Assembly (NCBI GenBank): GCA_028823395.1
Contig: JAPKBO010000009.1
Coordinates: forward strand, 1-39,840
DNA length: 39,840 nucleotides
Direction of reading: 5' to 3'
Source: Planctomycetota bacterium
Lineage (GTDB): Bacteria; Planctomycetota; UBA1135; GCA-002686595
Shown here: one piece after another, positions 12,105-36,801 of the stretch
Numbering within the stretch: position 1 is the stretch's first letter
Layout of the letters: each line of letters starts with the position of its first letter
The notes under the pieces: generated by a model
The model's input: the letters and a program-made list of their open reading frames with translations, nothing else
The model's database searches: none
What the model was told of the DNA's origin: nothing
Program-made: the position numbers and the translations under genes

Positions 12105-13277
12105 CTAGATAAGCGGTGAGGTGACGCCAGCGGGACTTACAAGGCCGTGGCGCTGCCGCGAGCGGCAAACGAGGTTGTTCCACTGGTCGAAGACTTGCAC
12201 CTTCGTCCACGGCTGCTTGGACGGCGAGAACGGGTCGCTCATCACGCAGAAGTTGTCAGCATGTACCACGTTCCGCAGGTACTCCCCGTTGAGGAAGTAG
12301 AAGCGCGGACCAGTGTTCACGCCGCCACCCGACTCGTTGTAGAAAATACCGTCACTGCCAGCGCCGTCGTAAACGGCGGCGGTATCCAGAGCGGAAATGT
12401 AGTCCAGCGGAACGCCGCGGAACATCGGGGATCCGTAGTCAGGATCCTGGCCGCCGCCGCCACCGCGGAACTCGTCCTGGTTGACGCGCAGCGCGTGCTC
12501 GTAGTTCACGATGCCGCTCAAGGAGCAGGCAATGAAGTGCGGGCTCGTCGTCTTGTCCGAATACTCCGGCTTCTTGGGAAGTCGGTCGAACTTGAGCGAC
12601 CTCATCATTTTTGAGAACACGCCGAAGATTTCCGCCGTGGTTCCGAACGGGTCGGCTGTGCCGTCATACGTCAACTGACCCGGAACCCATGAGGACTGAG
12701 TTGCCGTGTCAATGCCCATGACGTTCGTCCCGGTCCAGCCATTGGGCACACCGTTGGTGTACTCATTGACGTATGTCGGGATGGAGAAAGGAGCCTTGCC
12801 GGCAGTCGCCTCCATCGCGGAGTAGTCGGGCGCTGCCCACAGTTCATCATCCATCGAGTTGCAGATGTCGGTCCAGAGGTTCTGGTGCTTCTGCCGCTTG
12901 AGGGTCTTGTACTGGTGGAATCGGGCCTTCTTGGAGAGCTGGCCTGTGTTCAGACCGATCTCATGTTTCGTCCAAGAGACGTTCGCCGTGGCAAAGCGCC
13001 ACGGAACCGTCCAGGTCGTGCCCGTTTGCGGGTTCGAGTACTCGAATTCCGCGTTCGGGTCGTACCGTTCATAGGTCGTCTTCTCGGAGAAGAAGATCGT
13101 GTCTTGGATCTGTGTACCACCCTGCACCATGTCTTGGAGCGAGTGGCCGCGCGCAAGGCGCGGATACGTGTAGGTATTCTTGACGGCTTCGTTGATGACA
13201 TCTTCAGCCGATGTCAAAAACGCAGGGCCTGTAGAGGCCATGAACGTCGAGAAGTTCTGATAAGGAGTGCCGGACAC
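12105..13277 (-). CDS. Major capsid protein
   Basis: The 390-residue protein has the expected length and features: an N-terminal helical arm (about residues 1-50), a central spine-like helix near KTLKRQKHQNLWTDICNSMDDE, a tip-like Gly-rich loop (FRGGGGGQDPDYGSPMFRGV), and a C-terminal beta region ending in VSPAGVTSPLI. It lies directly after an acidic scaffold gene and before a decoration protein, the canonical order. The start is GTG at 13277, preceded by a strong AGGAGG ribosome-binding site 9 bases upstream that lies in a small hairpin. An HK97-like fold is assumed because all known tailed-phage capsids have it; the sequence alone does not assign a subfamily. Confidence 0.85.
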   Translation of the reverse strand: MSGTPYQNFSTFMASTGPAFLTSAEDVINEAVKNTYTYPRLARGHSLQDMVQGGTQIQDTIFFSEKTTYERYDPNAEFEYSNPQTGTTWTVPWRFATANVSWTKHEIGLNTGQLSKKARFHQYKTLKRQKHQNLWTDICNSMDDELWAAPDYSAMEATAGKAPFSIPTYVNEYTNGVPNGWTGTNVMGIDTATQSSWVPGQLTYDGTADPFGTTAEIFGVFSKMMRSLKFDRLPKKPEYSDKTTSPHFIACSLSGIVNYEHALRVNQDEFRGGGGGQDPDYGSPMFRGVPLDYISALDTAAVYDGAGSDGIFYNESGGGVNTGPRFYFLNGEYLRNVVHADNFCVMSDPFSPSKQPWTKVQVFDQWNNLVCRSRQRHGLVSPAGVTSPLI

Positions 13278-14339: not shown

Positions 14340-14669
14340 TCAAGCCCCGTGCTTGCCCTTGTACTTGCCATAGGCGTGCTTGCCGTCTGAGCGGTCCACG
14401 AAGTCCTTGACCTCCTTGCGGGAGGCAAACTGAGCCCTGCCCACGGAGTCATATCGCGGCGCTCCAGGCACCCAGTCCTCAAACTGCTGCGCCGTGAAGT
14501 GCAAATCAGGCTCGACCGCGACCGTTACGCCGCCCTCGACCAGCCGGCGCAGCTTGCGACCAGCAATGACGCGCTCCTCACCGAACTTAGGACGGGCCGG
14601 ATCGTCGCCCGTGAAGAAGAGTTCAACCCGCTCGCCGGTCTCCACGTCCTCGAAGGTGTACTCAGGCAT
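14340..14669 (-). CDS. Small conserved-type protein between portal and scaffold
   Basis: A 109-residue protein starting MPEYTFEDVETGERVELFF. The opening recalls the beta hairpin of FmdB-type zinc ribbons (MPxYxYxC), but all the cysteines are absent, so a metal-free relative is possible. The second half (FEDWVPGAPRYDSVGRAQFASRKEVKDF) is mixed helix and turn. Its start overlaps the portal stop by 8 bases. Genes of this length in this slot are frequent in related phages, but the function is unknown. Confidence 0.7.
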   Translation of the reverse strand: MPEYTFEDVETGERVELFFTGDDPARPKFGEERVIAGRKLRRLVEGGVTVAVEPDLHFTAQQFEDWVPGAPRYDSVGRAQFASRKEVKDFVDRSDGKHAYGKYKGKHGA

Positions 14670-16572
14670 TCAAAGCCCCCGACTGTGAGGCAGCCTGTGG
14701 TCCGCTCTGCTGGCCTGCTGTGCTCTGTGGCCCCATAGGCGCAGGAGCCTTCGGGGCGGGCCTACGCGGCGCCACAGCCCGCGCAGCGCCCACGTCCTTG
14801 CCCAGCCTCGGCTGCGCCTTCGGATTCGGTCCAGCTTCGCCCATCTGGGCCTCAGCCATCGCCATCAGCGCCTCCGTGTTCACCATCTCACCCAGGTCCG
14901 GCATGTTGAGCGAGTCGCCCAGCTTGTCGAATATCTGAGCCCAGTTGATGAATGGCGTCTGCGGCATCAGCGGCGCCACCTGGCCGATGAACCCAACCAT
15001 CTCCATCGTCCGCTTCTGGAGCAACCCCTCGGTCGTGCGCTCCATCGAGTATGCCTCGATCTCCAGCTCCAGGTCGTCGAAGGTTGCCCCGCTCTCCGGG
15101 TCGAAGTTGCCGCCCACAAACCAGGGCTCGTTACCCTCGCCCTGTGCAGCCTCCTCACCCAACGGGAACACCACCTCGTCGTCGTGGTACATATACCAGG
15201 CGACCTTGCGTAGCAGCCGCGTCACCGCGTCCTCGAAGCGCCGCTTCAGGAACTGCACCCGGATCGTTGCGCTCTCGTTTGCGATCTGGTTTTCCGTCGC
15301 CGTTCCCTGCCCGCTCACGTTGCCGCGCTGCGCGTCCGACATGCCCAGGTTGCGGTCGAGCCGCTCCCTCGCGATCTGGATGTAGGTCGCGATGTCCTGC
15401 GGCGGCCCGCCGATCTCGACCGGCATCACGTCGTCCTTATTGAACCCCTCAATGGGGATCACTGTGTCATGCTCCGCGTTCTTGATCGCATCGACCAGCC
15501 GCGGCTTGCTTGCGTCCACGATAATGCCGCGCTTGTAGTGCCCCGCGCTCTCCGTCAGCGACAGCGCGTGACGGTTCAGGTCGAGCGCCTGCCCATACGT
15601 CGCCGTCAGCGGGCCGAGGCTATATGTCTCATCGGGAACGTCATATGCACCAAAGAAAACATACGGACCAGAGCGCGGACCATAGAACGGTCTGTCCTCA
15701 CGAATGAAGTCGGAAGACACCTCGCCCTGCTCACCCACGCTGACAGCCAGCGTGTAGATGCGCCCGTGATAGCCGTCACCGTCTTCTTTGTTCCGCTCGG
15801 GGATCCAGATGTCGTAGCCCACCACCTCTTCGCGCTGCGCGTCCTCGTTCGCGCCCTCATTGCGCTCGCTCTCGCGCGCGTTGTTCGTCGCCATCGACTC
15901 AATGACATCGGTATTCCACCCACGGTCGGGGAACTCCGCTGCCTCGTCTAGCAAGTCCTCCTTGTCGCGGATCCACTTGTGCCCCTGAAAGCGGATCTCG
16001 CTGCGATCCGACGCCAGGTAGTCCTCGATGTACCGCTTCTGAGGGATGCGCTTGACCGTGGGCCAGCTAGGAGTCGCTCGCGCCACCGGAACCATGCCCA
16101 GTTCAACGCCATCCGTGGGCTTCGCCCGCGTCTTCAGCCGCCCGGTCTTGATGTGCTCGCGCACCTCCTTCGGAATCTCCGCGTCACCCTCTTCGCGTGA
16201 CACAGCCATGATCCCGAAGTTCCAAAGGAAGTCCTGCGCTGGCGCAATCAGCGTCTCGTTCAGGTTCTCATCCCGCACCCAGCGGTTCAGACCGTGCTGA
16301 ATCGCCTCTGCCGCAGACCCCTGCGTGCCCACCCGCCGCGTCTTCACACGCACGCGCGGGTTGTCGAAGACCAGCCTCGGCACGATGTAAGACATATACT
16401 CGTAGGCGTAGTTCTCCGGGTCGAACTTGGTCGTCCCGTCGCCGGCACTGCCCTTGTACCAGGGGCCCGTGTACTTACCGAGGCGCTCATCGAAGTCCTT
16501 GAGGGCCTCGTTGCGCCGTGCCTCAGCAGCTCGCACCTCCAAGTGCAGGCTTTTGGGGTCGTCTTTCAGCAT
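14662..16572 (-). CDS. Portal protein
   Basis: The 636-residue protein lies 1 base after the large terminase stop and before the scaffold, the expected place for the portal (the dodecameric channel for DNA entry and exit). Consistent features are length, the N-terminal alpha/beta wing (YEYMSYIVPRLVFDNPRVRV), a stem-like region with DRNLGMSDAQRGNVSGQGTA, typical of portals, followed by a long helical segment with ESATIRVQFLKRRFEDAVTR, and a Pro/Ala/Gln-rich disordered tail (from about residue 590). No catalytic motif is expected or seen. The assignment rests on these patterns plus gene order. Confidence 0.85.
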   Translation of the reverse strand: MLKDDPKSLHLEVRAAEARRNEALKDFDERLGKYTGPWYKGSAGDGTTKFDPENYAYEYMSYIVPRLVFDNPRVRVKTRRVGTQGSAAEAIQHGLNRWVRDENLNETLIAPAQDFLWNFGIMAVSREEGDAEIPKEVREHIKTGRLKTRAKPTDGVELGMVPVARATPSWPTVKRIPQKRYIEDYLASDRSEIRFQGHKWIRDKEDLLDEAAEFPDRGWNTDVIESMATNNARESERNEGANEDAQREEVVGYDIWIPERNKEDGDGYHGRIYTLAVSVGEQGEVSSDFIREDRPFYGPRSGPYVFFGAYDVPDETYSLGPLTATYGQALDLNRHALSLTESAGHYKRGIIVDASKPRLVDAIKNAEHDTVIPIEGFNKDDVMPVEIGGPPQDIATYIQIARERLDRNLGMSDAQRGNVSGQGTATENQIANESATIRVQFLKRRFEDAVTRLLRKVAWYMYHDDEVVFPLGEEAAQGEGNEPWFVGGNFDPESGATFDDLELEIEAYSMERTTEGLLQKRTMEMVGFIGQVAPLMPQTPFINWAQIFDKLGDSLNMPDLGEMVNTEALMAMAEAQMGEAGPNPKAQPRLGKDVGAARAVAPRRPAPKAPAPMGPQSTAGQQSGPQAASQSGALNA

Positions 16573-18097: not shown

Positions 18098-18421
18098 CTA
18101 GGAGGTGAAGTACGAGACCTCGAATGTTGGATTGCTCGCCGAGAACGCCCGCAGGTCTGGAAGGTCGAATGGGTCGCAGAAGATTTGGAGTGTGTTCTCA
18201 TCCTCGGTTCCACCGCTCCCGTGGACCTTGAGCCCGCTCGCGCCGCCGGAATTGGGCCGGATGTAGACCTCCGAGGTTGTTAGCGCGTTCGTTTCTATCA
18301 GTATCCCCACGCAGCCGACTGGGATGGTCAGGGGCTTCTCTGTGGATTTAGACAGGGAAATCGACTCCCATGACGTTGCCTCCGAGAAACCGAAAGGCCT
18401 GTTCATGTGGTAGCGGCCCAT
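18098..18421 (-). CDS. Small virion-type protein, paralogue of its upstream neighbour
   Basis: A 107-residue protein with the start MGRYHMNRPFGF. It shares MGRY at the N-terminus and a DPFDLPDL motif near the C-terminus with the 120-residue product encoded just upstream (MGRY, DPFDIADI), and both are beta-rich, suggesting gene duplication. Its ATG overlaps the TGA of that gene. It lies between fibre genes and TerL; a small tail-tip or fibre-associated protein is plausible, but no family was recognised. Confidence 0.7.
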   Translation of the reverse strand: MGRYHMNRPFGFSEATSWESISLSKSTEKPLTIPVGCVGILIETNALTTSEVYIRPNSGGASGLKVHGSGGTEDENTLQIFCDPFDLPDLRAFSASNPTFEVSYFTS

Positions 18422-18783
18422 CAGGGATAGAAGCGGATCACGCTCACGCTAATGGTCGTCCCATCCGTGTGGATGTAGATGTCTGCGATGTCAAAGGGGT
18501 CGATGTAGGCCACCATGTAAGACTGGTGCCCAGCCTGATCCCACATCTGCATCCCGTTCAGGACAGCGGGGTCCGGCGTACTGTCGGTGCTCATGTATGT
18601 GCGGCTGCTGTGCCCGCCAATCGTTTGAACCCAGACAGCCGTGCAGCCGTCCAGATCAAGGTCAGGCGACGCCGTAGACGGTCCCATGTGAACGGGGGTG
18701 CCGCCTGTGGGTATCGCGATGCTCACAACGGTTTTGCTGTTCCACACAGGGCCAGCAGGCGTGTTCTTCCAGTATCGTCCCAT
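18421..18783 (-). CDS. Small virion-type protein, first member of the paralogous pair
   Basis: A 120-residue, beta-rich protein beginning MGRYWKNTPAG. It resembles the next gene in its N-terminal MGRY and in a C-terminal YIDPFDIADIYIHTDG segment. It has many Thr, Ser, Gly and aromatic residues and no cysteine pair or catalytic motif. The start is 4 bases after the upstream stop. Likely a structural part of the fibre/tail cassette; function unknown. Confidence 0.7.
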   Translation of the reverse strand: MGRYWKNTPAGPVWNSKTVVSIAIPTGGTPVHMGPSTASPDLDLDGCTAVWVQTIGGHSSRTYMSTDSTPDPAVLNGMQMWDQAGHQSYMVAYIDPFDIADIYIHTDGTTISVSVIRFYP

Positions 18784-18787
18784 TGTC

Positions 18788-19183
18788 CTACGCCGAGGTG
18801 AGTCGGCTCCTCACGTCCACAAACTTGGTTACGGTCATCTGCCCGAGCTTCTGCTCTGGGTCTGTCTCTATCACGTACTCCAGCCGGTACGTCTTGCCAC
18901 CTGATTTGAAAACGTGATACCCCTCCAGAACATGCCGAAAGGTGCTGCCTATGGTGTCGCGGTCCCACGGCAACGCGGTATTCGCCACGTCCTCGATCAC
19001 ATCCTCCACGTCGAGGAGTTCGCTGTAAACCATCACCCCCGGCGTGCCAGATGTCGTGTCGAACACCCGCAGGACGATGCTCTCCACGTCCGCCTGTAAC
19101 AGGTACGTGCCGACAGGCTTCGTGAGCCGGTCCATGACCGTCACGCTGCCCTTCTCCTCTACGTCGAGTCGTTCTCGGATCAT
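18788..19183 (-). CDS. Beta-sandwich structural protein of the fibre cassette (putative)
   Basis: The 131-residue protein is predicted mostly beta. It contains PWDRDTIGSTFRHVLEGYHV and GGKTYRLEYVIETD, a pattern often met in small phage or prophage structural proteins placed beside fibres. The ATG overlaps the stop of the upstream beta-helix fibre (ATGA). No signal peptide or enzyme motif is present. A role as fibre connector or baseplate-like part is an inference. Confidence 0.65.
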   Translation of the reverse strand: MIRERLDVEEKGSVTVMDRLTKPVGTYLLQADVESIVLRVFDTTSGTPGVMVYSELLDVEDVIEDVANTALPWDRDTIGSTFRHVLEGYHVFKSGGKTYRLEYVIETDPEQKLGQMTVTKFVDVRSRLTSA

Positions 19184-21654
19184 GCGTTGTTGAAGTAACA
19201 GGGTTGTCCGAAGGCGGGAGATCCACCACCCACCTGGCTGGGCTGATTGGTGAAGCCGCCAATGATGCTGTTCGACTCCTGGTAGCTGGCACCAGGCGTC
19301 GAATCAGGCGAGGCGAACACCGTCGCATACATATCCGTCAAGTCCGACGTGGCCCAAGTGTTGCCGGACACAACCGTCGCGGCACTCACAGCCGCGGTGT
19401 TCAGTGAGCCGAACGAGATCGGACCAAACGCCCACAGATCCCCGAAGATGTTGTTCTTCACATGGACGTTGAGCGGGATCGGGGCGGCGGCGTCCTTCTG
19501 TTCGACCGAAATGATGTAGTTGCCACCGCTCAACCAGTTGTCCTCGATACGCAGTCCGGCAGCTCCACCATCTACAGGTCCGCCCGTTGTCAAAGGATCC
19601 GGGTCGCGGGACTGCACCAGGAAGGCCGCGTTCGACTTGTAGCTGTAGCGGAAGTTCGACGGCTGTGTGTACTCCCCCAGCCCGAGCGGCCCACCAACTA
19701 TCGAGCCCGCGGCGGAAGGCGGCTGCTCTGACTGCGGCACAGAAAGCGGGTCTACCGCCAGCGAACTCGATGCCGGGTTGTTCGGATGTGGCATGTCGCA
19801 GAAGTTGTGATGGAAGTACACGTTGCTCCCACCGTCTTGGATCTGGTGCGCGTCACAGTGAGATGAAATCTTCGACCCGCAATGGTGGATCCAGTTCCAG
19901 GCTTGCTCGCTGTTACGGTTCGCGAGCATTGCATCCCCACCTGTGTCGTGGATGTTGTTGTGGTGCCAGTAATGGATGCCGTCCACCGCGCCGCCACCGT
20001 TTGCAATCAAGCCCGTGCTATACGAGCCCTGCACCTCGCAATACCGAATCTCCGAGCCCTTACCGAGCGTGGACGGAGCCTTCACGTCCACCACATACTG
20101 CTGACCGTTGTCTGTCGGGCCTTGCACGTAACCGCCGTCCAGCCAGCAGTCCTCGATGAGGCAGTTCTGGGCGCTCTGGCCTCCCGACGCAATGACCACC
20201 TTGCGGATGTCGCACTTGCGGATCGTCACGTTGTTGTGCTTGACCAGGATGCCGAAGCCTGTGGACTGGAGCCCTTCGATGATCTGACCATCCGAAGTCG
20301 TGGACAAAGAAGCGGTCAGCGGGGTAAACGAGACCGACGCCTTCGTCACCCGAGGCCCTGTGTTCGTCGGGCCAGGTCGAGAGGCTGCCGTGCTCGCAGC
20401 CGGGTCCTTGATTGTGTGCGTGTGGACCGACTGCCCACCGAGCTTGATAGACGACGATTGCACGGGATCAGAAAGCGTCAATGTAAACCGCTCATCCTCC
20501 TCGGTCAGCGCGTCAGCATGAACCTCTAAGTTGGCAAACCCCGTGGCTGACCCTGCCGGGATGTCGATGACGTTATCAGCGAGCACCAGGCCGCCCGTGT
20601 AGATGGGATCGGTGCTCGTCACATCTACACCAATCGTGGCCGGGGCCGTTGCCGTCGGATCAATCGAGTATGGAACCTGGACTGAAAACGGATGCACCTG
20701 CGACATCGTGACTGAGACGGTAGCCGCTGTACTGCCCGTTACTGGCTCAAACGTCTCGCCTAGAGTGCTGCTGAACTGAACCACGGCAGCCGGCGTCGGG
20801 CCCGTACCGTCGCGCCCCGCGCCGTAGTTCACTAGCGCCTGGTTCTCGCTCATCAGCGTGTCACCGAACGCCACGAAACCTATCTTGCCCACGAAGTCAT
20901 GCGTGACGCCCGCGGCTGTGTCAATCTCGTTGCCGAAGGCGAGCGGGAATAGCGCGCTCCATGAGATTGCGGTCAGCGGACCAAGCACCTCCTCATTTGC
21001 CACCTGCACGCCGTCGATGTAGAGGAAGCAGTTGTCTTCGCCAGAGAGCCCGCCGTCGTATGTCAATACAAGATGCTGCTGCGTCGCTGTCACCTCGCCG
21101 GTCCCGCTGCCGGAGGACGCCACCACAGGAACGTCACTGGGCGGGGTCAGGTTTAGATCGCCGTTCGCGTTCGTGCCAGCCGCCGTATTGTCGTCCGTCG
21201 CCACGCGCCCGCGTAGCGTGTTGTCGGCTGACGTGTACCCAATGCCTAGCATCACGTTGCGCTCGGTGATCGGGTCACCACCTAGCACAACGGGGTTGCT
21301 CATCGTGACGAGGCGTGAGGGGCCAGCGTTGCCAGCCGCAGGCGTACACCACACCTCGATCCAGAACTTGCCCGACGCGCGCATCGAGACCGCAATCTGG
21401 TTTGGCGCGGCAAAGTCCGGGTCCGGGCCCTTCACAATCCCCGTGCCCGTCCCGCCTGTATTCATCGTGATGCCCGAGCCATCGGCCTCAAACGCCGCGT
21501 CGCCGGCCAGGGTCAGGGTGGGGCCAAAGTTGTACGTGTCCGAAGCCGTTGTAGCCGCAGGGTTCGTATCGTTGAGCTGGTACTCAGCGATGATCCCCGT
21601 GGTGTCACGGTTCGTTGACGGAAGACCGCCGCCTCCTTGGCCGATGATTCCCAT
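19180..21654 (-). CDS. Tail fibre / receptor-binding protein: LamG-like, Calx-beta and beta-helix
   Basis: This 824-residue protein has three recognisable blocks. Residues about 20-285: LamG/concanavalin-like sandwich (NCFLYIDGVQVANEE is the typical strand). About 290-418: Calx-beta-type repeat (VSVTMSQVHPFSVQVPYSID, then LTEEDERFTLTLSDPV). About 450-760: right-handed parallel beta-helix of pectate-lyase style, with regular NVTIRKCDIRKV, NCLIEDCWLDGG, GSEIRYCEVQGS and YFHHNFCDMPHP turns. Such a fold fits a trimeric fibre or depolymerase that binds or cuts polysaccharide; no catalytic triad can be assigned by eye. There is no signal peptide, as expected for a virion part. It is flanked by another fibre and a sulfatase. 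Confidence 0.8.
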   Translation of the reverse strand: MGIIGQGGGGLPSTNRDTTGIIAEYQLNDTNPAATTASDTYNFGPTLTLAGDAAFEADGSGITMNTGGTGTGIVKGPDPDFAAPNQIAVSMRASGKFWIEVWCTPAAGNAGPSRLVTMSNPVVLGGDPITERNVMLGIGYTSADNTLRGRVATDDNTAAGTNANGDLNLTPPSDVPVVASSGSGTGEVTATQQHLVLTYDGGLSGEDNCFLYIDGVQVANEEVLGPLTAISWSALFPLAFGNEIDTAAGVTHDFVGKIGFVAFGDTLMSENQALVNYGAGRDGTGPTPAAVVQFSSTLGETFEPVTGSTAATVSVTMSQVHPFSVQVPYSIDPTATAPATIGVDVTSTDPIYTGGLVLADNVIDIPAGSATGFANLEVHADALTEEDERFTLTLSDPVQSSSIKLGGQSVHTHTIKDPAASTAASRPGPTNTGPRVTKASVSFTPLTASLSTTSDGQIIEGLQSTGFGILVKHNNVTIRKCDIRKVVIASGGQSAQNCLIEDCWLDGGYVQGPTDNGQQYVVDVKAPSTLGKGSEIRYCEVQGSYSTGLIANGGGAVDGIHYWHHNNIHDTGGDAMLANRNSEQAWNWIHHCGSKISSHCDAHQIQDGGSNVYFHHNFCDMPHPNNPASSSLAVDPLSVPQSEQPPSAAGSIVGGPLGLGEYTQPSNFRYSYKSNAAFLVQSRDPDPLTTGGPVDGGAAGLRIEDNWLSGGNYIISVEQKDAAAPIPLNVHVKNNIFGDLWAFGPISFGSLNTAAVSAATVVSGNTWATSDLTDMYATVFASPDSTPGASYQESNSIIGGFTNQPSQVGGGSPAFGQPCYFNNA

Positions 21655-21670
21655 GCTACTTGCACATCTC

Positions 21671-23461
21671 CTAGCTCTGGGTCCATTGCATCTGGAAGAA
21701 GAACTGATCCACCGTACCCGACACTACAGGGACGGTGATCCACACCATGCTGCCCGCCGGGATGGCTGCAACGCTGAACGATGTTAGCGACGTAGGCCAT
21801 TGGGGGCTGTTGACCGAAACGGGCTGCGGGTTCGTCGCAAGCACCTTGTTGGTCGTCGTCGCCGTTCCGTTTACCGCAATGTCGTGGTAGACCTGGATCT
21901 CCACTTGAGCCCCTAAGCCCACTACCTGCGCCTCGATACTGCCGACAAGAATAGCCTTCTCGGTGTGGAACAGGAGGAAGCTCTGCCCTGCAACGGGCGT
22001 CTCCCATGTCCAGTCACGGCAGAAGTACGTGCCCTTGTCGTGCAGCCGAGCACCCGTGCCGCCCATGTGCGTGACGATCTCAGCAGCGGTCACGCCAGCG
22101 AGGCCCGTGTCTGCGTTCGCCGCGTGCAGTTGCGTGTGGTCGATGCCCACATTGTTGAAGTGGTTCATCAACGCAGTCGGCAGACCGTGCTCGATGGTGT
22201 CTCCAGCTACATCCACAGTCGTCTCGCCAGAGACAGCAACGTGCGTGCGCAGCTTTAGATCAGTGCTCGTCGAGCTTGAACTGTGAACACCTGCGCCGCC
22301 GCCGATGTTGGAGCCCGTGAGCAGGGTGCCGCCGCCGCCTCCTGTGACACTGGCAGACACTTCGGTCCACGGCGGCAAGTGGTCGTCGTGCCGCGTGAAT
22401 ACCACGTTTGCGCCAGCACGAAGCGCCATCCCAATGAACGGCGATTCCCCAGCGTCCCCGCCTGCTGTATTGGGGCCGCGCCAGTACGCCTCTGTAGAAG
22501 ATCCATTCCCAGGCTGGTCTACGCCAGCCGTGGCATCGTGGGCCACAATACAGACGTAGCCCTTCTCCACACCGCTGTGCGTGTTTGAAACCACATCACC
22601 CGAGACGTAGGTGCGCTTGCCGCCAGTCATGCCTGCATCTGTGACGTTCGTCGCGTTGCTGCTGTCGATGGCCTGGTTCGTGTCGCGAGGGACAGAGCCA
22701 TCGCTGTATTGGTCGTGCGTCAGCGACAAGGATCCCGTGTTGTCTACAGACGTAATATTGATGGTTGTGTTGACCGGGGTCGTGATCTTTGCGTGCAGCG
22801 CCGTACAGGTTGCGTTCGCGCTGCCGCCGATGACTACGTTTTGGTTGTTTGCGTCGTCGGCCACCGTCGTGCCGCCGTCAAAGTTGTACGTGATCGTGGT
22901 GGTGCCGTCGTTGATGACGAGCGTGTCCGCATTATTCGGCTGCCCGCCGAAGGTGATTGTGCCCGTGGCGTACGCGCTCGCTGCCCAAGCGCCGCGCCAG
23001 GTGTGCGGGGCCACAATCGGGGTTGGGTCTCCATCCCCTACGCTGATCTGCCCGTCACCCAGGAGCCACCTATCGAGATGCCCCAGACGAGACGCGCCCT
23101 GCGACCGCTCGTCGTTCAGCCCCGTCACCATCGCCAGCGAGCGCAGTTGTTCTAGGTCGTTGGAGCCGACATCGTTGTCGCCCTTCTGCCCAAAAAGCGC
23201 CAGCTTGCCGGCGGGAAGCCCCGGCTGCATGAAGAGCAGCTTGGTATTCGTGGCCGCATCATCGAGCAGGTTGGGGTTCTGCGCCGAGTCGCCCATCAGA
23301 ATCGCGCGACCCTGCGGGCTGTCCTCTGTGCTCTCGTAGTCCCGGAACGATACCGTGTCCGACAGTCGGTTTGTGCTCGCCTGTTCCTTGAGGATCGGCG
23401 TAGACCCTGCACCCCCCGTGGGATCTACCCAGATTGCTTTGATCTCTGTTGCTGCGGCCAT
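21671..23461 (-). CDS. Tail fibre protein
   Basis: The 596-residue protein is beta-rich with Gly, Thr, Ser, Asn and Asp. Residues about 168-235 hold a module (NADTLVINDGTTTITYNFDG, then VVIGGSANATCTALHAKI) that also occurs in the tail nozzle of this genome. A short Gly-rich stretch with SVTGGGGGTLL (around 375) separates this from a C-terminal sandwich (residues about 470-596) with aromatic-rich strands ending QFFFQMQWTQS, perhaps the receptor-binding tip. It lies 4 bases after the sulfatase gene. No enzyme motif is seen; it may anchor the sulfatase or bind the same glycan. Confidence 0.75.
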   Translation of the reverse strand: MAAATEIKAIWVDPTGGAGSTPILKEQASTNRLSDTVSFRDYESTEDSPQGRAILMGDSAQNPNLLDDAATNTKLLFMQPGLPAGKLALFGQKGDNDVGSNDLEQLRSLAMVTGLNDERSQGASRLGHLDRWLLGDGQISVGDGDPTPIVAPHTWRGAWAASAYATGTITFGGQPNNADTLVINDGTTTITYNFDGGTTVADDANNQNVVIGGSANATCTALHAKITTPVNTTINITSVDNTGSLSLTHDQYSDGSVPRDTNQAIDSSNATNVTDAGMTGGKRTYVSGDVVSNTHSGVEKGYVCIVAHDATAGVDQPGNGSSTEAYWRGPNTAGGDAGESPFIGMALRAGANVVFTRHDDHLPPWTEVSASVTGGGGGTLLTGSNIGGGAGVHSSSSTSTDLKLRTHVAVSGETTVDVAGDTIEHGLPTALMNHFNNVGIDHTQLHAANADTGLAGVTAAEIVTHMGGTGARLHDKGTYFCRDWTWETPVAGQSFLLFHTEKAILVGSIEAQVVGLGAQVEIQVYHDIAVNGTATTTNKVLATNPQPVSVNSPQWPTSLTSFSVAAIPAGSMVWITVPVVSGTVDQFFFQMQWTQS

Positions 23462-23465
23462 TCGT

Positions 23466-25784
23466 CTAGTCCTCTTGAGTTAGAAGGGTGACCGTTCCGG
23501 TCTCTGTGGTGATGGGGAAGTCGCCATTTGCGTCTGGCGCAATCTCGTACAGGGGCAGCCCCGCCGAGTCGTGGATCGGTAGCTTGTCCGTGCTTGTCAG
23601 TCTGATCTTGTGCGTGTCCACCAGCACATACTTGCTGCTGTTCTCGCCGCCCGCCTGGTCCAGCAGGGCGTCCAGCAGGCCAACCCCATAGGCATATGCT
23701 GCCTTCTCTGTGTTCGTTGGCGCGTTGGCCCCCGTTGCAGGGGTGCTCGCGACCTGTAGGCTTTCGCGCCGCATCAACTGCACGCGCTCCCAGGGGTCGG
23801 GACTGTTCACGTTCAGCGCCTGGATTGCAGCCGCGTATTCTTCGCTGCCATATGCCCCGGCGCTCGTCGGATCCATGTCCGTCTGGCCGGCCTCTTGGAG
23901 GTGGAAGAACCACTCTCCATTGTCGTCATCGCCGTCGAGGAAGATAGGGCTCCCCGTCCCGCCTGACCATGTGCTCGCCCGCCGCACGATCTTGTACAGC
24001 CCACCGTCACCACTGAATGTGCCCTCGGTGATCGCCTGTGATGCCGTCGCCGGGAACCAGAACGCGAAGCCCAGCTCGGCGTGCGACGTATCCTCGCGGT
24101 CCCCAAGCGGAAAATACTTCTCACAGAGAGACCACTGGCGACCGTGATCGACGTGCGACTCCAAGCCGCCACACACGTCCTTGAAGCTCACGCCGTCGAG
24201 GTAGAAGGATCCATTCGCCGCATGATACTCGGCCAGCTTCGTGCCGCCGCCCAACGTGTCCCAGACCGTCACAGGCACGTCGCAAATGTCCACCATCGCT
24301 CTGGTCTGCTTGCCACCCATCGTTCCGCCCACTATCGGGCCGAACACCAACATGGGGATCCTGGTGCCCGCCTCGAACGTCGTCCGCTTGAACGTGCCCT
24401 CGGTGTGCGTGTAGTTCGTCGAGCTGTCCGCGAGGTTCTGCTGGAGCGGCAAACCAATCTGATTGCCCAGGTTCGTGTGGAAGGCTAACCAGTGTTGCGA
24501 CTCGCCACCGTTGTCGCCCACGAAGTAGATGTTCGTCGTCTGCTCTAGCGCGTCGAGCGCAGCCGTTAGCGTGGTGATCTCGGCGTCCTTCTGCGCCGCA
24601 AGCGCGATCAGGAACACCTCTAGCTCCTTATCGAACGCCTGCATCCGGCCCATCTGGGACAAGGCCCCTTGTGCGGCCCCAGGAAGGGCAGGCAACGGCG
24701 GCACCTGCTGGTCAGGATGAACCGCGTCGTCCCCGTACAGGTTGACGTCCGCAATCAGCGCATCATGCGCCTGCGAATACGGATCGTGCGCGAAGCTGCT
24801 GTGAATATGGCACACATAGAAGCGATCAGCCCCCGCGGCAGGTGCATCGACCTCCGCAATAGCCGTCAGCGCATCATCGAACTGGCGCTTCACCACCCAC
24901 TTGTCGGTGCCTGCGCCTGTGCCGTAAGTGCCATTCACATGCGCAACCGAGCCCGTGAGCCCCTGGATGCGGTAGTTGTAAAACATATCCCGACCCTGCC
25001 CACCCGGAGTGACCTCTTCGGGGTTGGGCATGATGTGCTCTGCGAGGTTCGAGAACACCGTCGAGTGCTTCGCGTCTGCGCCCAGCTTGCTCCCGATGTG
25101 CGGCCAGCCCGTGCCCCAGTCGCGCGCAGGGAAGATCCCTGTGTGGTGCGCCTCCTGCATGTCCGCAGTCGGCAGCCCAAGGTGCCACTTGCCCGTGAAG
25201 ACGAACGACCCTTTGATCGTTCCCGGCTCCAGGTCGCCAGCAGGGTCCAGCGTCCCCGGCCACCCATGTGTCGCGTCCACCAGAGCCTTGGAATATGGAT
25301 GGACATCATGGACAGCCGTGCCGCCGAACTCGTCCATCACACCCGTGCCGAAGTTGGTCAGCACATCGCCCTCGTAGAACTCAGGCACGTTCGCTACGCC
25401 GTGGCCCTTCTGGAGCGATGCCTGCCCGCCCTTGATCGACGCGCCTGGCTTCATGCCGGTGAGAATAGATGCGCGTGTGGGGCTGCACACGGGCTCTGCT
25501 CGCGCATTGAGGAATGTCAGCCCCCGAGTTGCAATTGCCTCCAGCGTAGCGCATGCGGGCTGGTACTGGTTCGTAGCCGCGCGCACGTTGATGCCGCCAG
25601 CCTCGGGCGCTGTGTACGGTCGGTTCCAGCGGTAGAACGAAAAATCCACATCATCAATGAGGATCACAATGCTGTTCGGCTTCTCGGTCAGTTCACCGTT
25701 CGTAGGTGCGCCGCCCGGCCAAGCTGCCTGGAACGGTGTGTCGCCGTGCTCGGGTGTGGGGCCGGACTTGAAGGTGGTGGTCAA
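23466..25784 (-). CDS. Formylglycine-type sulfatase in the fibre cassette
   Basis: A 772-residue protein with all hallmark parts of type I sulfatases (alkaline-phosphatase superfamily): metal ligands in IVILIDDVDFS (Asp44, Asp45), the formylglycine signature CSPTRASILTG with Cys100 and Arg104 (CxPxR), TGKWHLG with Lys199 and His201, His328 in CHIHSSFAHDP, VGDNGG with Asp424 and Asn425, and Lys466 in FKRTTFEAGTRIP. Family knowledge: Cys100 must be oxidised to formylglycine by a maturase, then the enzyme hydrolyses sulfate esters. No maturase gene or signal peptide is seen, so host maturation and virion attachment are inferred. About 200 C-terminal residues beyond the core may fasten it to the tail. 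The start is TTG at 25784, with GGAGGGG upstream, overlapping the previous stop (TTGA). Likely target: host sulfated polysaccharide. A phosphonate- or phosphate-ester activity is possible. Confidence 0.9.
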   Translation of the reverse strand: MTTTFKSGPTPEHGDTPFQAAWPGGAPTNGELTEKPNSIVILIDDVDFSFYRWNRPYTAPEAGGINVRAATNQYQPACATLEAIATRGLTFLNARAEPVCSPTRASILTGMKPGASIKGGQASLQKGHGVANVPEFYEGDVLTNFGTGVMDEFGGTAVHDVHPYSKALVDATHGWPGTLDPAGDLEPGTIKGSFVFTGKWHLGLPTADMQEAHHTGIFPARDWGTGWPHIGSKLGADAKHSTVFSNLAEHIMPNPEEVTPGGQGRDMFYNYRIQGLTGSVAHVNGTYGTGAGTDKWVVKRQFDDALTAIAEVDAPAAGADRFYVCHIHSSFAHDPYSQAHDALIADVNLYGDDAVHPDQQVPPLPALPGAAQGALSQMGRMQAFDKELEVFLIALAAQKDAEITTLTAALDALEQTTNIYFVGDNGGESQHWLAFHTNLGNQIGLPLQQNLADSSTNYTHTEGTFKRTTFEAGTRIPMLVFGPIVGGTMGGKQTRAMVDICDVPVTVWDTLGGGTKLAEYHAANGSFYLDGVSFKDVCGGLESHVDHGRQWSLCEKYFPLGDREDTSHAELGFAFWFPATASQAITEGTFSGDGGLYKIVRRASTWSGGTGSPIFLDGDDDNGEWFFHLQEAGQTDMDPTSAGAYGSEEYAAAIQALNVNSPDPWERVQLMRRESLQVASTPATGANAPTNTEKAAYAYGVGLLDALLDQAGGENSSKYVLVDTHKIRLTSTDKLPIHDSAGLPLYEIAPDANGDFPITTETGTVTLLTQED

Positions 25785-26293
25785 CCCGTATCCCCTCCCC
25801 GCGCAGACCAGCGCCCCTGCACAATCGTCCGATGCACAGGCTCCGAAACCCCTGCCTCGGTGTAGGTCACATCGAACACATGCCCGCCATTGCGGATCTT
25901 GTCCATGTTGTCCGTGCCCTTCCTCTCGGTCGTCGAGATGCCTGAAACATGGATCGTAAGCAGCGTCGTGCTCGCCAATGGCTCGTTGAACCCGGCCTCG
26001 GCATAGAGAATGCGGTCATCCCCAAAATGATCGTAGAACCGCCAAGTGAAACTGGCTGTCGTGATGTCCGCGAGCCCGGATGGCTCCAGGCTGAAATCCC
26101 AGTCCATCGTGATGCTGTCGCCCACCTCGATCTGCTTGTGCCTGTGCCTCTTCGGTGAGGTGGCGGTCGCATTCAGGGTGTATCCGTTGCTGCCTGGATC
26201 CCAGGCGTCAGTCAGGAGGCTCGACGCCGGCGGCGTAACAACGAGCGCAGCCCAAGCCTTCGGCGTGATGTCGAAGTCGAATCTCTCAGCCAT
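25781..26293 (-). CDS. Beta-sandwich structural protein upstream of the sulfatase (putative)
   Basis: A 170-residue protein, predicted all beta, with MDWDFSLEPSGLADITTASF and NGGHVFDVTYTEAGVSE strands, like the N-terminal domains of baseplate or upper-fin proteins that anchor fibres (a description such as BppU N-terminal-like fits). It starts with ATG abutting the upstream stop and overlaps the sulfatase TTG. Given its place before the fibre genes, it may link sulfatase or fibres to the tail. Function is inferred. Confidence 0.65.
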   Translation of the reverse strand: MAERFDFDITPKAWAALVVTPPASSLLTDAWDPGSNGYTLNATATSPKRHRHKQIEVGDSITMDWDFSLEPSGLADITTASFTWRFYDHFGDDRILYAEAGFNEPLASTTLLTIHVSGISTTERKGTDNMDKIRNGGHVFDVTYTEAGVSEPVHRTIVQGRWSARGGDTG

Positions 26294-34515: not shown

Positions 34516-34621
34516 CGCCGCTGAAGTTCTCGACCGCATCGCCATCATGCTCGCCACGCGCGACAAGGTGAATAACGACGAGGCGGTACTGCGGGCAATT
34601 CTGCGGGAGGCGACACGGTGA
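34508..34621 (+). CDS. 37-residue protein between methyltransferase and PP-loop gene
   Basis: MTSAAEVLDRIAIMLATRDK..., likely one amphipathic helix pair with a charged end. ATG overlaps the methyltransferase TGA, and its stop overlaps the next GTG (GTGA). Kept because both junctions show coupling; function unknown. Confidence 0.55.
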   Translation: MTSAAEVLDRIAIMLATRDKVNNDEAVLRAILREATR

Positions 34622-35460
34622 ACCCCTACCTGCTCGACCGGCCCGCGGTTGTCTCGTTTTCTGGCGGGCGCACTAGCGGCTTCATGCTCTGGAATATCCT
34701 CCAGGCGTTCGGCGGCAAGTTGCCCGACGAGGTGCTCGTCTGCTTCCAGAACACTGGACTGGAACATGAAGCCACCTATGCCTTCGTCGAGCGCGTCAGC
34801 GAGGAGTGGAGCGTCCCGATCCACTGGCTGGAGTACCGCGTCACGGATGGGGAGCACGACTATGCCGAGGTAACGCCGGCCACCGCCAGCCGCAAGGGCG
34901 AGCCGTTCGACGCCCTGATCCAGAAGAAGGGCTACCTCCCGAACCCGCGCAGCCGTATCTGCACAACTAACCTCAAGATGCGGACACTCGACCGGCACCT
35001 AAAAACGCAGCCCGCGTTTCTCGACGGCTACACAAACGCTGTGGGCCTGCGTTACGACGAGCCTCGCCGCGTCCACAGGCTGAAAGCGGACAATGCCCGC
35101 GAAGAGATGGCCTGTCCGATGTATAAGGCCAGGCACACAGAGGAGGATGTGCTCGCCTTCTGGCGGCGGTGTGCCCTGTTTGGTTTTGACCTCGATCTAC
35201 CCTACGGCAACAACACCTTCGGTAACTGCGTAGGGTGCTTTCTCAAAAGCAAGGCCAAGCTAGAGTTGATCGCGGAGACACAACCCGGCCACATTGAGTG
35301 GTGGGCGGGCGCCGAGGCGCTCAAAATCACTGACGGCCCTGGCGGTAAGTTCCGCCTTGACCGCGAACCCTATGCCCGCCTCCTAGAGCGCGTCCGCGAA
35401 CAAGGTCGATTCGACTGGCCCGAAGAGGAGGCGGACGCGCCTTGCATGTGCCATGACTAG
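34618..35460 (+). CDS. PAPS-reductase-like PP-loop protein
   Basis: A 280-residue protein of the adenine-nucleotide alpha-hydrolase/PAPS-reductase superfamily: PP-loop VVSFSGGRTSGFML (residues 11-24), a second conserved patch RSRICTTNLKMRTLDRHL, and extra cysteines (FGNCVGCFLKS; CMC near the C-terminus) that could bind an iron-sulfur cluster. Phage members are frequent but rarely proved to reduce sulfate; some relatives take part in DNA modification (DndC type). No dnd partners are seen here. The start is GTG, overlapping the small upstream gene. The specific reaction is uncertain. Confidence 0.75.
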   Translation: MNPYLLDRPAVVSFSGGRTSGFMLWNILQAFGGKLPDEVLVCFQNTGLEHEATYAFVERVSEEWSVPIHWLEYRVTDGEHDYAEVTPATASRKGEPFDALIQKKGYLPNPRSRICTTNLKMRTLDRHLKTQPAFLDGYTNAVGLRYDEPRRVHRLKADNAREEMACPMYKARHTEEDVLAFWRRCALFGFDLDLPYGNNTFGNCVGCFLKSKAKLELIAETQPGHIEWWAGAEALKITDGPGGKFRLDREPYARLLERVREQGRFDWPEEEADAPCMCHD

Positions 35461-36273: not shown

Positions 36274-36801
36274 TTACGGATCGACGCCCAGGAACTCACA
36301 CGCCTCTAGGTATTGCGAGCGCGTCACAACCATGACCCCGCCGAACAGGTAGTCCCGCTCCCCGTTCTCGACGCGGCGGTGCTGCGTCAGGATGATCGCG
36401 TATTGGGTCGGGTGCCCCACCCGCATAGACGGGACGTACTCGGGAATGAAGTACCCGGCGTCATCCCAGGCATCGAGTTCCGCCTGCGTGAATTCGTCAC
36501 GCCACTGGCGGAACGCTGCCGGCGCTTCGTTGCCGTCACCGTCATGGTCGAAGTAGGTCAGCCCGTTAGGGAACAGTCGGCGCTCGAAGCCGAGACCGCC
36601 GCCGCTGCCCTCATACGACTGCTGCGGCCCGAAGCGCAGCGTGTGTTCCGCCACGTAGGGCTGCGTCTTGACGACATCAACCAGTACACCGCGGCGCTGC
36701 CAGAAGTGCGTGTCCTTGGGCACTCCGATTGCGGTTGCGATGCCGACCAGGCAAAGGGCGCCCAAAAGCGCCCCGGCGGCTGATTCGAGTGAGTGCGTCA
36801 T
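36274..36801 (-). CDS. Membrane-anchored protein, last gene of the late operon
   Basis: A 175-residue protein with an N-terminal hydrophobic stretch (SAAGALLGALCLVGIATAIG, about residues 7-27) that could be a signal anchor, then a mixed alpha/beta domain with FDHDGDGNE, an EF-hand-like calcium loop (DxDGDGxE). No lysozyme, amidase or peptidase motif was recognised. Position after the holin and spanin candidates points to lysis, possibly as the missing endolysin or a regulator; this is speculative. Confidence 0.6.
   Translation of the reverse strand: MTHSLESAAGALLGALCLVGIATAIGVPKDTHFWQRRGVLVDVVKTQPYVAEHTLRFGPQQSYEGSGGGLGFERRLFPNGLTYFDHDGDGNEAPAAFRQWRDEFTQAELDAWDDAGYFIPEYVPSMRVGHPTQYAIILTQHRRVENGERDYLFGGVMVVTRSQYLEACEFLGVDP

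Follow-up and report, generated by a model that had tools for sequence, protein, structure and literature searches.

Gene organization of the sulfatase locus

The window, which is the whole stretch of DNA analysed here, represents an entire podophage contig of 39.8 kb that was binned with a 3.8-Mb Planctomycetota MAG. The RpoB of this MAG shares 87% identity with the RpoB of a Planctomycetota MAG. The gene of an S1-type sulfatase is followed downstream on the same strand by the genes of two fibre-like proteins (596 aa and 824 aa), by small genes and then by the terminase, portal, scaffold-like and capsid genes. RecT and exonuclease genes are located upstream of the sulfatase cassette. The main features of the region are the following:

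25781..26293, minus strand: 170-aa upstream gene, translationally coupled to the sulfatase gene (TTGA overlap), no family match in Pfam or PHROGs
23466..25784, minus strand: S1-type sulfatase, 772 aa, TTG start, without signal peptide; PF00884 at 2e-8, sulfatase fold match, relative with 95-96% identity
21671..23461, minus strand: 596-aa fibre-like protein, encoded directly downstream; its N-terminal part diverges strongly in a pair of phages otherwise 98-99% identical
19180..21654, minus strand: 824-aa fibre-like protein, weak LamG-like match and marginal beta-helix match
18788..19183, minus strand: 131-aa protein, homolog of the gene immediately preceding TerL in the relatives L022/L023
16574..18097, minus strand: terminase large subunit (phrog_2, 3.5e-37)
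14662..16572, minus strand: portal / head-tail adaptor (phrog_332, 9.7e-10)
12105..13277, minus strand: major capsid protein (phrog_9953, 1.2e-7)

An earlier note, made from the sequence alone, had placed the sulfatase gene at 23466-25784. An ORF of 772 codons with exactly these ends was found on the minus strand, with TTG as its start. The coupled starts described in the same note were confirmed as well: the sulfatase start codon overlaps the stop codon of the upstream 170-aa gene by 4 nt (TTGA), and the 596-aa gene begins 4 nt past the last base of the sulfatase gene. The beta-sandwich fold that had been ascribed to the 170-aa product found no support in Pfam, PHROGs or profile comparison. 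This gene was also considered as a counterpart of the phrog_1084-type beta-sandwich genes which precede the sulfatases of the siphophages L018 and L034; the profile comparison gave a probability of 0.7% and the assignment was rejected.

The two fibres that had been proposed to lie beside the sulfatase are present as fibre-like genes, but their fibre nature is indicated by weak domain matches. The 596-aa protein gave a marginal CBM5/12 match and nothing else in Pfam, and the LamG match of the 824-aa protein (E 4e-4) lies below the cut-off. A sequence search of the PDB with both proteins provided no match. The idea that a beta-helix fibre cuts the polymer after its desulfation was not supported, as neither protein has a clear hydrolase or lyase match in Pfam or the PDB. 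The sulfatase gene lies in the place expected of a virion enzyme, within a tail/fibre cassette whose members are recognized as fibres by these weak matches, and not outside the structural module among metabolic neighbours, as would be expected of an auxiliary metabolic gene. The head-module relatives L022/L023 carry no sulfatase/fibre cassette at the corresponding place.

Two adjacent small genes of the window (18098-18421 and 18421-18783, minus strand) form a tandem duplication that has diverged (23% identity, E 4e-4). A PAPS-reductase-like gene (phrog_424) was found at 34618-35460 (plus strand) in the replication region of the phage.

The sulfatase and its catalytic residues

The 772-aa protein matches the S1 family model PF00884 with E=2e-8 (34.4 bits, cut-off 25). 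A phmmer search of the PDB retrieved sulfatases at E=4e-7, and a profile built from the viral relatives of the protein retrieved them at up to 2.8e-41. The AlphaFold model is weak (mean pLDDT 44, pTM 0.52, low confidence outside the core); all top Foldseek matches of this model with pLDDT 44 are nevertheless sulfatases (best E 1.6e-9), the carbohydrate-active ones leading. As judged from these sequence comparisons, the window gene encodes an intact type I (S1) sulfatase and the homology is not due to chance. Pfam detected no other domain in the protein, including the backbone-cutting glycosidase or lyase domains of a capsule depolymerase. The sulfatase domain contains unusually long insertions. 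Neither a virion domain (Pfam, PHROGs, comparison with the fibre neighbours) nor a domain common to the sulfatase and its fibre neighbours was found; fusion to such a domain is common but not obligatory for virion-borne enzymes.

All 11 catalytic and metal-binding residues checked are present (D44, D45, C100, P102, R104, K199, H201, H333, D424, N425 and K466). The residues that had been named previously (C100-S-P-T-R104, D44/D45, K199/H201, D424/N425 and K466) were all found at the given numbers. Their positions are:

25650..25655, minus strand: D44-D45 metal site (residue alignment with viral relatives)
25473..25487, minus strand: C100-S-P-T-R104 formylglycine signature; C100, P102 and R104 invariant in all viral relatives examined
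25182..25190, minus strand: K199-W-H201 of the GKWH motif (residue alignment with viral relatives)
24786..24788, minus strand: active-site H333, not named previously, invariant among the viral relatives aligned
24510..24515, minus strand: D424-N425 metal site (residue alignment with viral relatives)
24387..24389, minus strand: active-site K466, replaced only in L215

When 17 viral sulfatases were aligned beside the window protein, the full catalytic set was found in 15 of them; L025 is truncated at its start and L215 lacks K466. Sequences with no more than 22-30% identity still have the Cys, the Arg, both Asp, the Asn, both Lys and both His in common. Apart from the gene of a sister phage described below, no relative of the window protein above about 30% identity was found.

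The absence of a signal peptide, which had also been claimed, was seen by direct reading of the N-terminus; signal peptides were judged by eye from the N-termini. In this respect the window protein resembles the T4-like, L018, L033 and L034 sulfatases and differs from secreted sulfatases of the host type, since N-termini resembling a signal peptide occur in most host sulfatases examined.

A sister phage and selection on the sulfatase

A contig from another metagenome (IMG/VR 3300024520_003466) has an identical gene order and 98-99% nucleotide identity to the window (blastn), and the two sulfatases share 95-96% of their amino acids. The MAG of the window contig yields 78 matches to PF00884, from which it might be supposed that a host sulfatase was misplaced in the phage contig during assembly or binning. 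Such an artefact is extremely improbable, considering that the same arrangement occurs in an independent metagenome and that the best match of the window protein elsewhere in its own MAG is a short and weak segment (E 6e-7).

The dN/dS ratio of the sulfatase pair from the window and its sister is 0.31, and two pairs of T4-like sulfatases gave 0.12-0.23. On the basis of these ratios, the window sulfatase is under purifying selection, i.e. maintained. The two phages differ in two places, in a loop of the sulfatase and, far more, in the first part of the 596-aa gene:

24662..24747, minus strand: sulfatase loop differing between the two near-identical phages (gap in a 98.7% identical blastn alignment)
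22635..23354, minus strand: divergent segment of the 596-aa gene, unaligned by blastn except for a 52-bp patch

The dN between the window and its sister is 0.19 in the 596-aa gene, compared with 0.004 in the adjacent 824-aa fibre gene. Such local divergence in an otherwise conserved phage would correspond to the pattern of receptor-facing (adsorption-like) genes.

Sulfatases in other viruses

Profile scans of IMG/VR yielded about two dozen contigs with sulfatases. Since phage sulfatases and short conserved motifs served as seeds of these scans, the number of contigs cannot be read as a frequency, and a bias towards contigs with tail genes is possible. In the viral loci, genes were called from codon usage. 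L020 was set aside as host-like, and L031 and L207 were set aside as lying outside a structural context. The homologues that the earlier note had suggested looking for in other phage cassettes were found in baseplate, tail-fibre and pre-terminase slots of myo-, sipho- and T7-like phages. In a collection of phage genomes (50,697 records), no match to the window protein or the L015-type protein was detected. The matches of the L018 sulfatase in this collection were not convincing as phage sulfatases: an Acinetobacter record carries chromosomal genes, and the other records are unannotated or short. No close relatives of the window sulfatase were found in species genomes.

In the T4-like set (L014-L017, L026-L030 and L032), the sulfatase follows an N-terminal module of ~205 aa. 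The gene order is ~1800 aa, ~620 aa, 1046-1389 aa with the sulfatase, ~193 aa, ~1200 aa and ~700 aa. The ~205-aa module, which is covered by PHROG 5417, shares 31-34% identity with the free-standing 193-aa protein encoded next to it and also resembles the N-terminus of the preceding ~620-aa protein (16-18%). The fold predicted for the module matches predicted phage proteins, among them two with a tail-fibre annotation, and a PDB fold search with the module gave nothing significant. Tail sheath, gp23-type capsid, protease, TerL and baseplate wedge genes are present on a 75-kb T4-like contig. In a second T4-like arrangement (L203, L204 and L206, the last being cut), the sulfatase forms the C-terminus of a 1682-1727-aa protein. 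The first ~930 aa of the L203/L204 protein correspond to a full-length ortholog of an 888-aa protein (33%, E 1e-148). In L015-type phages, this 888-aa protein is encoded beside the genes of the baseplate wedge and has no sulfatase at its end. The coordinates are:

L203:1678-6861 and L204:370-5418: sulfatase fusions
L042:14867-17533: sulfatase-free ortholog

The sulfatase domains of the two T4-like arrangements are 32-33% identical to each other. The comparison of the L015-type and L203-type phages therefore indicates that the same sulfatase domain is attached to two different baseplate-region proteins. Because the sulfatase is fused to tail/baseplate-region proteins, a structural role of the fused T4-like proteins is very likely, and the view that phages carry sulfatases on their virions appears well supported by these relatives. 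Homologues are not confined to host metabolic genes; such a confinement would have spoken against a virion enzyme.

Further sulfatases were found in a variety of structural contexts. A 439-aa sulfatase lies among baseplate/tail-region genes of another myophage (L033). In the related siphophages L018 and L034, the sulfatase is located between a small beta-sandwich-like protein (with a phrog_1084 match in L018) and the terminase, and in L019, L025, L212 and L213/L214 it lies upstream of terminase and portal, comparably to the window. In the T7-like phage L209, it occupies the tail-fibre slot, where an internal virion protein and then a tail-fibre N-terminal protein precede it. The sulfatase and two neighbours in L209 (L209:1945-6012) each show a signal-peptide-like stretch at the start, which the other phage sulfatases do not have; this sulfatase and some of its neighbours look secreted, i.e. 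directed along a different route. The L209 contig and the nearest relative of the window come from one and the same metagenome.

In two related siphophages, the genes of the beta-sandwich protein and the sulfatase are directly preceded by genes of large proteins (L049:16383-18812 and L052:17167-18963). These large proteins show weak mutual similarity (33% over 104 aa) and no Pfam match, and it is possible that they are partner enzymes of the sulfatases. The window (36274-36801, minus strand) and the siphophage (L018:15773-16285, minus strand) both encode a 170-175-aa protein of unknown function, with 73% identity between the two; this similarity suggests an exchange between the podophage and the siphophage, or a common host group. 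In PHROGs, phrog_19870 is labelled as unknown function. It behaves like a family of phage sulfatases, with matches to those of L015, L016, L018 and L203 (1.3e-16 to 1.6e-9) and a remote one to the window protein (0.012).

The sulfatase of L207 is a counterexample in its context, since it sits among replication genes, and not all phage sulfatases need therefore be structural. This case bears on the possibility that the window gene is an auxiliary metabolic gene, whose product would act inside the cell or be released by lysis and free sulfate or sugar for metabolism. A review counts sulfatase among the viral sulfur-cycle auxiliary metabolic genes in deep groundwater (PMC10029852), and the PAPS-reductase-like gene of the window phage could be seen in the same light; it is, however, located in another module and on the opposite strand. 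Sulfated glycans are, moreover, extracellular, the window gene belongs to the fibre cassette, and the T4-like relatives carry the domain within tail/baseplate-region proteins. We consider the metabolic explanation unlikely.

A release or detachment enzyme, comparable to a neuraminidase, would desulfate the coat or matrix late in infection so that the progeny can leave, whether bound to the virion or not. Lysis would set free the window sulfatase, as it has no signal peptide, and some relatives lie near lysis-type genes, as in L209, where small membrane/lipoprotein genes directly follow the sulfatase. In the T4-like relatives, however, the baseplate-region fusions locate the enzyme to the end of the particle that serves adsorption, and a role in release or detachment seems quite unlikely.

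Origin of the phage sulfatases and formylglycine maturation

A tree was calculated from the viral sulfatases and 36 sulfatases of the MAG and its relatives. The T4-like sulfatases form one clade (SH-aLRT 100). The branch of the window protein is long and lies, with modest support, close to L025 and to a sulfatase from one of the related MAGs. A single clade of all viral sulfatases was not supported, as the viral proteins are intermixed with secreted sulfatases of the related MAGs. Several acquisitions of phage sulfatases from bacteria are likely, as far as the tree topology indicates. Matches of the A3 profile in related MAGs turned out to be chromosomal sulfatases.

It had been proposed that the host supplies the formylglycine, which is less certain than was assumed. 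FGE-fold proteins are present in the MAG (three PF03781 proteins) and its relatives, but the canonical two-cysteine FGE site was absent from the FGE-fold proteins seen in the MAG (G000) and its relatives (G009, G010, G015, G051 and G054), and the anSME model remained below the cut-off in the MAG and all relatives searched. A pattern search for a host maturase was also empty. The many chromosomal sulfatases of the MAG depend on the same maturation; it is therefore more likely that a maturase escaped recognition, or is missing from the incomplete genomes, than that none exists.

These results also concern the possibility that the virion protein uses the sulfatase fold only for the binding of sulfated glycan and turns over little or none of it, for example with C100 left unconverted. 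The failure to find a canonical FGE or anSME in the host group and the unusually long insertions in the sulfatase domain would fit such a protein. Conservation of the catalytic residues at 22-30% identity exceeds what binding alone would demand, and the chromosomal sulfatases of the MAG would meet the same maturation problem. We therefore regard a purely binding function as very unlikely.

Proposed role of the sulfatase

We propose that the product of the window gene is an active formylglycine-dependent S1 carbohydrate sulfatase which would be synthesized, without a signal peptide, by the infected cell, its C100 presumably being converted to formylglycine by the host. The enzyme would become part of the tail-fibre apparatus of the planctomycete podophage, or be released together with it, and would act outside the cell. 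During adsorption, it would hydrolyse the sulfate esters of a sulfated polysaccharide on the host surface, or of a sulfated matrix around the host, and the desulfation would expose the polymer or a receptor to the neighbouring fibre proteins. Taken as a whole, this proposal of a tail-borne enzyme that desulfates a host surface glycan is the simplest reading and, in our opinion, fairly probable for this podophage. The reading of the gene as a phage virion sulfatase agrees with its intact and selected state, its position in the structural region and the fused relatives, but the window protein itself is free-standing and unfused. Its role in the virion is accordingly argued from the precedent in the family, the cassette position, the missing signal peptide and the variable neighbour.

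Some phages probably strip sulfate from the coat of the host to get in. In a broader sense, we think it somewhat more probable than its opposite that S1 sulfatases were repeatedly incorporated into the tails or baseplates of tailed phages from unrelated lineages (podo-, sipho-, T4-like and T7-like), where they would form a distinct class of entry enzymes that desulfate host surface glycans, and that the domain has moved between two baseplate-region proteins in the T4-like phages. If this is true, virion sulfatases add a new chemistry to the phage entry enzymes and explain how phages gain access to bacteria that make, or live in, sulfated glycan. It would also mean that an enzyme with a post-translationally made catalytic residue can ride on a virion, and genes now called unknown or auxiliary metabolic would receive a new label. 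The fused T4-like proteins are testable candidates and a possible source of sulfatases which are made intracellularly and free of signals.

Comparison with known systems

The phage entry enzymes known so far act on polysaccharides by cleavage or deacetylation. A full-text literature search, covering open-licence papers only, provided no description of a phage virion sulfatase, which does not in itself prove novelty. The FGE-sulfatase-domain variable proteins of phages are C-type-lectin-like; they were named after the maturase fold and are not sulfatases. Variable proteins of phage diversity-generating retroelements have been annotated with this domain (PF03781) (PMC12724379, PMC11318856); they have the word 'sulfatase' in common with the window gene and are not homologous to it. 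In a review of carbohydrate-interacting proteins of gut phages, sulfatase domains are mentioned in bacteria only (PMC9853417).

The known S1 sulfatases (PF00884), such as the Bacteroides mucin sulfatase (7an1/7oqd) and the S1_16 and S1_19 carrageenan sulfatases, have the same fold, the C-x-P-x-R motif and the same metal and catalytic residues as the window protein. In contrast to them, the window protein has no signal peptide, contains large insertions and is encoded in a phage structural cassette.

Tailspikes of phages provide the closest functional parallels. K5-2 and K5-4 are reported to be multi-enzyme T7-like phages with capsule depolymerase tailspikes (PMC5496888). The likeness lies in an enzyme placed in the tail-fibre slot beside other fibres; the depolymerases cut the backbone as hydrolases or lyases, whereas the window protein is a sulfatase. 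Tailspike deacetylases are similar in another way, as a decorating group is removed from a surface polysaccharide during infection. The gp63.1 protein of phage G7C is reportedly an enzyme of this type. For Pectobacterium phage PP99, a tailspike deacetylase that modifies the polysaccharide without chain cleavage is reported (PMC6989608). The tailspike deacetylases remove acetyl and have an unrelated fold, whereas the window protein is predicted from its sequence to remove sulfate.
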